A stretch of DNA of 64,000 bases from Haladaptatus paucihalophilus DX253 (lineage in GTDB: Archaea > Halobacteriota > Halobacteria > Halobacteriales > Haladaptataceae). Where the stretch lies: contig NZ_AQXI01000001.1 in assembly GCF_000376445.1 (NCBI RefSeq), positions 1 to 64,000 of the forward strand. The letters run 5' to 3'. This document shows, piece after piece, positions 3,007 to 37,240 of the stretch. The notes beneath the pieces are model-generated. The model saw only the letters and a program-made list of their open reading frames with translations. It did not search any database and had not been told where the DNA came from. The translations under genes were made by a program, and so were the position numbers. The stretch's first letter is position 1, and every line of letters begins with the position of its first letter.

Positions 3007-3818
3007 TTACGCTCTCCTCCGATTTCGGAACCCCCTATCCGGCAGCGATGAAGGGCGTCATGCTGCAGCACAGCGACGCCCGTCTCGTGGACGTCGCCCA
3101 CGACTTCCCACGACAGGACGTTCGGGCAACCGCCTTTTGGCTCCGCGAGGTGTTGCCGTACTTCCCGCCCGCCGTCCACCTCGTCGTGGTGGACCCCGGC
3201 GTCGGCACCGACCGGGCGGCGCTGGCGATTCGGGCGGGCGAGCACGCCCTCGTCGGACCGGACAACGGCGTCCTGCTCCCCGTCGCCCGCAAACTGGCCG
3301 ATACCGACCGATTCGACGTCTTCCGCGTCAACTACGAAAACGCGGACAGCGCGACGTTCCACGGGCGGGACGTGTTCGCGCCCGCCGCCGCCCGGGTCCA
3401 CGAAGCGGGCGTGGACGCGCTCGACGAACTCGAAGGCGTCGTACCGACCGAGGAGTTCGAAGACCTCCGGTTTCCCGACCCGACCGTCCGCGACCGCACC
3501 GCGACCGGCGAACTGCTCGTCGTGGACGACTTCGGCAACGCCATCACCAACGTTCCGGGCGAGTTCCTGGACGGCGTAGACGAAATCGACGTGAACGGCC
3601 TCCCCGCGCCCGTCGAACCCTCCTACGCCCACGTCGCCCCCGGTCAACGCCTCGTGACGGTCGGCAGTCACGGCAACGTCGAGCTCGCGGTCAATCGAGG
3701 CCGCGGCGACGAGGCGTTCAGTGTCTCCGCGAGCGAAGCGAGCGGCGGCTCGTCGGACGAGTCCACTGGCATCGAGGTCGGCGACGAGATTCGCCTCGAT
3801 ACCCGACCGAAACGGTGA
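3003..3818 (+). CDS. SAM hydrolase (DUF62 / S-adenosyl-L-methionine hydroxide adenosyltransferase)
   Basis: Member of the fluorinase/chlorinase-related family, 271 residues. The non-halogenating members split S-adenosylmethionine into adenosine and methionine using water. The N-terminus ITLSSDFG, the VVVDPGVG segment and the late DDFGNAITN segment are the conserved blocks of the family. Its ATG overlaps the nadM stop by four bases, so the two form an operon. Near the C-terminus lies a Ser/Glu/Gly-rich low-complexity stretch (about residues 240-252) encoded by a GCGAGCGAAGCGAGCGG run, which looks like a local insertion. Enzyme family is clear; the biological role in archaea is not. Confidence 0.9.
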   Translation: MITLSSDFGTPYPAAMKGVMLQHSDARLVDVAHDFPRQDVRATAFWLREVLPYFPPAVHLVVVDPGVGTDRAALAIRAGEHALVGPDNGVLLPVARKLADTDRFDVFRVNYENADSATFHGRDVFAPAAARVHEAGVDALDELEGVVPTEEFEDLRFPDPTVRDRTATGELLVVDDFGNAITNVPGEFLDGVDEIDVNGLPAPVEPSYAHVAPGQRLVTVGSHGNVELAVNRGRGDEAFSVSASEASGGSSDESTGIEVGDEIRLDTRPKR

Positions 3819-35339: not shown

Positions 35340-35969
35340 CTACCGTGACGTCCGCAGCGATTCGATTTCCGCGGCGAACTGCGTTCCGTCCGGGAGGTCG
35401 GAACACGGGTACCACGACACGTTCTCGATGGCCGCCGCAGTTGGTCGAATCGCCCCGCCGACCCGACGGGCGACGAATCCGGCCTGCAACACCGGCACGT
35501 GGACGCCGTTCCCGTAGTCGAACCGGAGCGTTTCGGTGAACAGCAGGTCGGTGACGTCGCACTCGATGCCGGTCTCCTCGCGGGTTTCCCGCTCGGCGGT
35601 TTCGGCGACCGATTCGACGGGTTCGCGGCGTCCGCCGCTCGCTTTTTCCGAAGCGCGGAGCGCTTCGCCCTGCTCACGGTATTCACCGTTCACTTTCTTC
35701 GAGGTGCTACGCACCTCGCCTTTCCCTCCCGGCGGTTCCCACACCGACGAGTGGCCGGAGTCCTGTACCAACAAAACGCGTCCGTCCTCGACGACGAAAC
35801 AGACCGCGACCCACGGAAATATCTCGTCCGGCGTCGCCGGGAAGTCGTACTCCGCGACGCCGGTGACGGGACGAACCCGGTGTGGAGCGTCGCCCCACCG
35901 TTCCGAAAGGGCTTCGCGGCGGGTTTCGGCGCGGTCGGCGAGCACGGACCGGACGGCTTCCGGTTTCAT
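35340..35969 (-). CDS. Nudix hydrolase with a long insert before the Nudix helix
   Basis: 209 residues. The Nudix box is split: WEPPGGKGE at about 77-85, then an extra segment of about 30 residues (SKKVNGEYREQGEALRASEKASGGRR), then ESVAETAERETREETGIE. In ordinary family members GG and the helix are adjacent in sequence (about eight residues). The insert is encoded by a palindrome-rich stretch (35622-35717). It keeps the frame, so the enzyme may still fold with a loop. The C-terminal half is a normal Nudix beta-fold. Start at MKPEAVRSVL rather than the longer upstream frame. Confidence 0.85.
   Translation of the reverse strand: MKPEAVRSVLADRAETRREALSERWGDAPHRVRPVTGVAEYDFPATPDEIFPWVAVCFVVEDGRVLLVQDSGHSSVWEPPGGKGEVRSTSKKVNGEYREQGEALRASEKASGGRREPVESVAETAERETREETGIECDVTDLLFTETLRFDYGNGVHVPVLQAGFVARRVGGAIRPTAAAIENVSWYPCSDLPDGTQFAAEIESLRTSR
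35622..35717. repeat. Palindrome-rich in-frame insert inside the Nudix gene
   Basis: About 96 bases, a multiple of three. It holds two perfect short hairpins: GAAGCGC-GGA-GCGCTTC (about 35670-35686) and, just at its right edge, GAGGTGC-TAC-GCACCTC. Codon use is less typical than the flanks. It looks like a small palindromic element inserted without breaking the frame; boundaries are estimated from protein family comparison and are approximate. Confidence 0.5.
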
Positions 35970-36046
35970 ATCCGACAGTTGCGGTGCAGGGGCAAAAGGG
36001 ACGGGGGATGAACAGGGCTTAGTGGTCCGCCTTCCCACCTTCGGGC

Positions 36047-37240
36047 ATGGAGACGACGGACGCATTCATCGGACTGACGTGCGTAGACTGCGGGGAGACG
36101 TTCGACGCCGACGAGGGGACACACCGCTGTCCCGACTGCGGCGGCATCCTCGACCCGGACTACGACTACGACGAAATCGACGTGTCGCGTGCGGACCTCG
36201 AATCCCGCCCGTTCGAGACGATGTGGAAGTACGCGGAACTGCTACCGTTCACCCGCGAGTCGGCGGTGACGATGGACGAGGGAGCCACGCCGCTCGTCGA
36301 GTGTCCGAACCTCGCCGAGGAGATGGGCGTCGGGCGCGTCCTGTTCAAGGACGAGGGGCGCAACCCGACGGGGACGTTCAAGGACCGCGGTCAGACGATG
36401 GCCGTGACCGCGGCGGCCCAACACGGCGCGACGGACATCGCGCTCGCTTCGGCCGGAAACGCCGGGCAATCCGCCGCGGCGTACGCCGCCCGCGCCGACC
36501 TCGAATCGCACGTCTTCCTCCCGACGCGCGCCGGGTTCACGAACAAGGCGATGGTTAACGTCCACGGCGGCGACATGACCGTCGTCGAGGGGCGCATCGG
36601 CGACGCGGGAGCGGCCTACGCCGACGCGATGGAGGAGGAAGACGACTGGTACTCCGTCAAGACGTTCGTCACGCCCTATCGCCACGAGGGAAAGAAGACG
36701 ATGTTCTACGAAATCGCCGAACAGATGGACTGGGAGGTCCCGGACGCCATCGTCTACCCGACCGGCGGCGGCGTCGGTCTCGTCGGAATGCACAAGGCCG
36801 CAACGGAGTTCCGCGACTTGGGACTGACCGACGACCTCCCGTCGATGTACGCCGCCCAAGCGACCGGGTGTGCGCCCATCGTGAAGGCGTGGGACGAAGG
36901 AAAGGACGTTCACGAGGCGTGGGAAACGCCGGACACCATCTGCGGCGGCATCGAGATTCCCGACCCCGGCGCGAGCCCGCTCATCCTCGACGCGCTCCGC
37001 GAGAGCGACGGCGGCGCGGTGGCGACCAGCGACGAGGACATCCTCGATTCGGCGGTCGCGGTTGCACAGAAGGAGGGCCTGGAGATGGGCGCGACATGCG
37101 CCGCCGCCGCGAGCGGGGCGTGGGAACTCGCCCAGCAGGGAGAGTTCGGCGAGGACGACACCGTCGTCATCCTCAACACCGGCGAGGGCAACAAGGACGA
37201 CGACGTGCTCCGCAGTCACCTGATGGGCATGGGAATCTGA
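36047..37240 (+). CDS. thrC: Threonine synthase
   Basis: 397 residues. PLP enzyme that turns O-phosphohomoserine into threonine. An N-terminal zinc ribbon (Cys12, Cys15, Cys28, Cys31) precedes the catalytic domain; the PLP lysine is Lys112 in GTFKDRG, and the phosphate loop is PTGGGVGL. It is the archaeal short type. Divergent from the Nudix gene, with starts about 80 bases apart. Confidence 0.95.
   Translation: METTDAFIGLTCVDCGETFDADEGTHRCPDCGGILDPDYDYDEIDVSRADLESRPFETMWKYAELLPFTRESAVTMDEGATPLVECPNLAEEMGVGRVLFKDEGRNPTGTFKDRGQTMAVTAAAQHGATDIALASAGNAGQSAAAYAARADLESHVFLPTRAGFTNKAMVNVHGGDMTVVEGRIGDAGAAYADAMEEEDDWYSVKTFVTPYRHEGKKTMFYEIAEQMDWEVPDAIVYPTGGGVGLVGMHKAATEFRDLGLTDDLPSMYAAQATGCAPIVKAWDEGKDVHEAWETPDTICGGIEIPDPGASPLILDALRESDGGAVATSDEDILDSAVAVAQKEGLEMGATCAAAASGAWELAQQGEFGEDDTVVILNTGEGNKDDDVLRSHLMGMGI

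Follow-up and report, generated by a model that had tools for sequence, protein, structure and literature searches.

Tandem copies of a dispersed double-hairpin element very likely split the Nudix box of a haloarchaeal hydrolase gene

The window analysed here, by which we mean the whole 64,000-nucleotide stretch of Haladaptatus paucihalophilus DX253 DNA, carries on its minus strand an open reading frame at 35340–36065 that encodes a Nudix protein (Pfam NUDIX, 3.6e-14). Translation of this frame likely starts at 35969, giving a Nudix hydrolase gene of 209 aa at 35343–35969 with its stop codon at 35340–35342. The Nudix box of the protein reads WEPPGGK-GEVRSTSKKVNGEYREQ-GEALRASEKASGGRREP-V-ESVAETAERETREETG, with two tandem 51-nt units between PPGGK and ESVAETAERETREETG. 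Orthologues without the insert have PPGGKGEAGESPAETA (genome G010) or PPGGKGEPDESVSETA (genome G029) at this place, and the net gain relative to them is ~31 residues. The original prediction had proposed that a palindrome-rich, in-frame insert of about 30 residues splits the Nudix box, and this part held. Its description of the insert as one 96-base segment (35622–35717) with two hairpins failed: the insert measures 102 nt, in which a 51-nt unit stands twice, head to tail, and each copy has two hairpins of its own.

Both units lie in frame on the minus strand, unit 1 (encoding GEVRSTSKKVNGEYREQ) at 35670–35720 and unit 2 (encoding GEALRASEKASGGRREP) at 35619–35669, and their DNA reads GGCGAGGTGCGTAGCACCTCGAAGAAAGTGAACGGTGAATACCGTGAGCAG and GGCGAAGCGCTCCGCGCTTCGGAAAAAGCGAGCGGCGGACGCCGCGAACCC. 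A covariance model made from 12 units scored them at 68.8 bits (E 7e-16 in the genome) and 66.6 bits (E 3e-15), respectively, against 14.6 bits for the best unrelated position in the rest of the window; this maximum excludes a second match to hairpin A of the insert on the opposite strand (20.3 bits). Hairpin A, with 8 bp and a 3-nt loop, lies at 35700–35718 in unit 1 and at 35649–35667 in unit 2 (minus strand), and is supported in both by the covariance model and by DNA and RNA folds. Hairpin B, with 5 bp and a 4-nt loop, lies at 35676–35689 in unit 1, where it is supported by folds and its outer pair covaries between G-C and A-U across the family, and at 35625–35638 in unit 2, where it is supported by the RNA fold and the DNA fold prefers a shifted variant (both minus strand). 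Unit 1 folds far beyond chance (z −6.1 as DNA, −5.0 as RNA). Unit 2 alone is indistinct from chance (z −1.5 as DNA, −0.9 as RNA) because it is GC-rich.

The number of units at this site varies among Nudix orthologues: G004 has two, G001 has one, G007 has a degenerate one, and G002, G010 and G029 have none, G004 and G007 being the closest relatives of H. paucihalophilus. Between unit 1 of H. paucihalophilus and that of G004, double changes keep both stems paired (GTGC/GCAC versus GCGC/GCGC in one, CGGTGAATACCG versus CGGAGAATTCCG in the other), and the paired changes in the first stem alter the amino acids as well. In an AlphaFold2 model of the protein the fold is kept (mean pLDDT 88), most of the insert has pLDDT 48–66, and the catalytic helix of the Nudix box (residues 121–133; 35571–35609, minus strand), which lies downstream of the insert, is predicted intact with pLDDT ~97. 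The two units are thus predicted to form an extra flexible loop that separates the glycines from the catalytic helix, and the model makes it likely that the Nudix fold is left intact. The insert in TrpA, described below, is likewise of low confidence in a structural model. On these predictions, and without activity data, the inserted peptide is most likely a tolerated flexible loop.

The original prediction had also suggested that a word in the low-complexity tail of a SAM hydrolase elsewhere in the window belongs to the same class, and this remains unproven. The shared word, AAGCGAGCGGCGG, has one other exact occurrence in the window, in that tail (3736); allowing up to two mismatches, its occurrences in the window show no excess over chance (4 found, 5.4 expected). 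At 3720–3770, close to the C-terminus of the SAM hydrolase, 17 residues (SVSASEASGGSSDESTG) are inserted that are absent from the tails of 22 of the 22 relatives examined. This tail is thus an insertion of its own lineage, but we rejected it as a further copy, as it scores only 11.1 bits with the covariance model (E 0.31 in the window) and kinship was not shown.

Across the family, the element is ~45–51 nt long and takes the form AGCGAGGCGC-loop-GCGCCTCG followed, after a spacer that measures 7 or 10 nt where the copy is coding, by GCGAGCGGY-GAA-RCCGCGAGC, with a GAA loop closing most of the short hairpins. In 94 distinct copies, 99.4% of stem cells were paired and 9 of the 13 stem pairs showed two-sided changes; pairing fell to 28–47% in a control with slid partners. 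The outer pair of hairpin B was G-C in 73 cases and A-U in 17, though it lies outside the search model. Comparison of the copies therefore shows that the stems are kept paired through compensatory change, with the caveat that template switching can restore hairpin perfection without selection. The ends of the element, AGCGAG at the start and GCGAGC at the finish, are not inverted repeats of one another, and the GTAG/CGTC tag of REPs is absent from the element alignment.

We found 30 copies in the H. paucihalophilus genome with the covariance model (E<1e-3), of which 11 were called coding and 19 non-coding by a heuristic based on open frame, acidity and codon-position GC. Coding copies lie in the Nudix gene (two units) and in genes for ribosomal protein S3, TrpA, PheT, LeuS, a MetE-like protein, asparaginase, L-aspartate oxidase and MoeA; except for Nudix and TrpA, these names were read off the sequence without Pfam confirmation. 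Order-wide, strict matches were present in 95 of 118 Halobacteriales genomes, with up to 32 per genome. These included in-frame copies in the housekeeping genes TrpA, CarB, LeuS, PheT, GlyS and MoeA as well as copies in intergenic DNA, so that dispersal of the element is directly shown by comparison of genomes. In a phylum sample, all 20 genomes with matches belonged to Halobacteriales, and none of ~124 genomes outside the order had any (Methanocaldococcus jannaschii was not in this search). No Rfam family matched the double-hairpin element, no solved structure was found to contain its peptide, and a search of a phage collection did not find it; in a separate observation, 13 stretches of viral contigs (L217–L229) hold a perfect long hairpin. 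The prediction would have been refuted if every close homologue had carried this insertion as an ordinary loop and copies had been lacking elsewhere, and neither was the case: orthologues carry 0, 1 or 2 units, the genome holds ~30 copies and the family spreads across the order.

Several individual copies have features of their own. Two or three units or partial units occur in a row at L010 (genome G012) and in the PheT and LeuS genes of H. paucihalophilus (L048 and L051); since several genes thus have consecutive units, local tandem growth is not confined to the Nudix gene. The copy L057 (1327218–1327269 in the H. paucihalophilus genome) belongs to an asparaginase of the Ntn type; it ends a few residues short of the catalytic threonine, within the linker whose cleavage is required for maturation. 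Five intergenic copies in the same genome (L043, L047, L052, L053 and L058) are preceded by a repeated stretch, AATCGGTTGGGGAGGGTGTGGC, often after GCGAGGGATGA. This stretch has no Rfam match and appears to represent a separate intergenic repeat family.

Copies in genes show a regular reading frame. Among the 86 best-scoring copies, 70 were coding on the sense strand, one was a doubtful antisense call (L148) and 15 were non-coding, such that 70 of the 71 coding calls were on the sense strand in phase 0 (element base 1 at codon position 1). None of these 70 copies contained a stop in phase 0, compared with 8 of the 15 non-coding copies, and the coding copies nearly always had a spacer of 10 or 7 nt, as against 8, 9 or 10 nt in the non-coding ones. 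Coding copies add 15–17 residues with the hydrophilic consensus S/G-E-A-x-x-A-S-(E/D/N-x)-A-S-G-E-x-A-S. In-frame residence is thus shown by comparison; that the inserts are translated we infer from sequence alone. Of the six possible frames, phase 0 alone is acidic (net +0.97, against −1.0 to −5.5 for the other five), so selection in acidic proteomes suffices to explain the uniform frame. The class-wide loci are those with the highest scores under a model for which coding copies supplied part of the input, which biases their coding share upward; the H. paucihalophilus genome (11 of 30) gives a fairer share.

Related genomes are polymorphic for presence or absence of the element at Nudix, TrpA, CarB and LeuS, and the length by which a filled site exceeds an empty one is exactly divisible by three (indels of 45, 48 or 51 nt), a precise presence/absence pattern that is plain from the aligned genes. 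A filled CarB gene exceeds an empty one by exactly 48 nt, as in G019 (filled) compared with G026 (empty), whose flanks are 97% identical. The CarB core is identical at 45 of 45 positions between G014, which we take to be of the genus Halorussus, and the Haladaptatus genomes G007 and G002, with flanks only 79–84% identical, and the codon adjoining the element follows the local lineage (GAG or GAA). An identical core in two genera with diverged flanks suggests that the element is mobile, though the identity could also come from transfer or gene conversion of short tracts. In TrpA, the 51 nt present in H. paucihalophilus and G001 are missing from G004, and six more of the 30 genes examined are filled at the same loop with differing sequences. 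On the tree, the TrpA filled/empty state requires 7 changes, and well-supported branches make at least 3 of these unavoidable. At the LeuS site compared, H. paucihalophilus is empty and G004 and G002 are filled; the direct repeat AGCGAGGC, which is also the left end of the element, stands on both sides of the insert and once in the empty site. Copies in different genera can occupy one and the same codon. No general target duplication was detected (k-mer and codon tests were null, and flanking repeats gave 7 matches against 4.5 expected), and the local repeats at CarB and LeuS are suggestive despite these null tests. As a separate observation, the CarB loop in other families (L277, L278, L283, L285 and L286) carries an unrelated insertion of ~7–8 residues (TGVHDPDA...), indicating that this loop tolerates insertions generally.

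We considered whether the insert could be something other than a dispersed element. It might be an ordinary haloarchaeal linker, in which the GC-rich DNA of S/E/A-rich, low-complexity surface loops arrives at similar codons by convergence, with palindromes as a mere by-product. The peptide does resemble typical halophile linkers, and loops in TrpA and CarB also tolerate other insertions. However, DNA identity exceeds what the peptide needs (45 of 45 positions across genera with diverged flanks), the compensatory stem changes are not silent (Ala-Ala becomes Val-Thr), and non-coding DNA holds 19 of the 30 copies in the H. paucihalophilus genome. We consider this explanation very unlikely, and the non-coding copies, the covariation and the cross-genus identity of inserts rule out reading the insert as an ordinary loop. 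Equally hard to sustain is a mini-intron or mini-intein, that is, a unit removed from the RNA or protein before maturity. Introns too show hairpins and insertion into conserved genes, but coding copies avoid stops and keep multiples of three, neither of which an excised element would need; in addition, there is no Rfam match, and the length and motifs of an intein are absent.

The remaining alternatives concern how the element spreads. A REP/RAYT-like or IS605-derived (PATE-like) element would depend for its movement on a Y1 (HUH) transposase that recognises the hairpins as single-stranded DNA. This would fit the short hairpins and the lack of target duplication. IS605 and PATE elements can also be numerous in haloarchaea, and some of them measure just 52 bp (PMC3119063). 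Against it, no Y1_Tnp protein is present in the H. paucihalophilus genome, copy number does not correlate with Y1 count over 117 genomes (Spearman 0.04, p 0.67), the three TnpB loci of H. paucihalophilus (the only genome considered for these) lack matching hairpins, and the REP tag is not seen. We regard this origin as unlikely: Y1/RAYT mobilisation was rejected on the missing Y1 protein and the absent correlation, and the TnpB loci of this one genome were rejected as a source because none of the three has hairpins of the family. A possible explanation, and the main alternative to mobilisation in trans, is copying at GCGAG-like sites by recombination or template switching (ectopic gene conversion, microhomology), combined with short-tract transfer between species and without a dedicated transposase. 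The LeuS insert flanked by AGCGAGGC, the GAG or GAA codon on both sides of the CarB insert and the tandem units of the Nudix gene speak for it, but flanking direct repeats are not general (the same 7 matches against 4.5 expected, with a null k-mer test) and the motif is missing from most empty TrpA sites.

Several known systems resemble the element in part. Protein-coding palindromes are regarded as a source of extra sequence for functional proteins, and their mode of movement is unknown. The RPEs of Rickettsia and the palindromic elements of Wolbachia are in-frame palindromes in unrelated genes, often in unstructured segments, that are also found outside genes (PMC10969869, PMC2996958). Like them, the haloarchaeal unit is a hairpin-forming palindrome that lies in frame in many unrelated genes and is also extragenic. 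It meets the criteria of an RPE-type functional class, namely a hairpin unit, in-frame insertion in multiple genes and presence/absence polymorphism. The likeness is one of function, drawn by analogy, and we do not claim membership of the RPE sequence family: RPEs are ~150 bp, encode a different peptide and occur in alpha-proteobacteria, whereas the haloarchaeal unit has 45–51 nt and two small hairpins, is found across an archaeal order and can occupy an identical codon position in different genera. A palindromic coding element in an archaeon has been cited for Methanocaldococcus jannaschii (PMC2996958), and is like ours in that respect but, according to the citing text, confined to one methanogen species. 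The original prediction of an RPE-like in-frame mobile palindrome in archaea is therefore supported (by the dispersed copies, in-frame residence and 0, 1 or 2 units), but its claim of novelty for archaea failed in part: what appears new, judged from open-access papers, is the haloarchaeal family, palindromic coding elements of Rickettsia, Wolbachia and Methanocaldococcus being already known.

Haloquadratum walsbyi has transposase-free short repeats, the PATEs (~52 bp for those consisting of termini only) and the small mobile repeats (SMRs) (PMC3119063). PATEs are related to IS605-type ends, and SMRs are 80–110 bp long, have terminal inverted repeats and target other mobile elements; in-frame insertion into genes is not described for either in the relevant sections of that paper. 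REP/BIME elements with RAYT transposases are small dispersed palindromes that sometimes lie within genes (PMC3733652), and in contrast to them the haloarchaeal element has no GTAG or CGTC tag, no Y1 association and a regular in-frame habit. It qualifies neither as a MITE, having no terminal inverted repeats and no general target-site duplication, nor as a REP/RAYT element, having no RAYT/Y1 association in the H. paucihalophilus genome or over the 117 genomes. In open-access full texts, neither an in-frame family of haloarchaea nor the consensus words of the element turned up (subscription literature was outside the scope of this search).

Taken together, the Nudix insert very likely consists of two tandem copies of a double-hairpin element that is non-autonomous and dispersed over most of Halobacteriales. 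We infer that the element would be mobilised in trans by an unidentified activity, which may recognise hairpins in single-stranded DNA. Insertions in genes would be retained mainly where the 15–17-residue peptide falls in a flexible loop and mainly in the sole acidic frame, so that selection would yield the uniform frame. The Y1 survey and the TnpB loci of H. paucihalophilus revealed no mobilising enzyme, and no insertion has been observed in real time. A bolder reading, against which we lean slightly, is that an order-wide element of ~45 nt enters the same codons of essential enzymes in repeated, independent events, by a mechanism unrelated to known transposases; if true, the element would be a natural source of new loops for halophilic proteins. 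The family is short, abundant and present in dozens of genera, including culturable species, and sequenced relatives differ by one clean insertion in essential enzymes. With culturable hosts and clean filled and empty relatives, movement of the element and its effects on proteins are directly testable. The family also carries a warning, that some 'halophile-specific' loops in host proteins may be traces of mobile elements, not adaptations.
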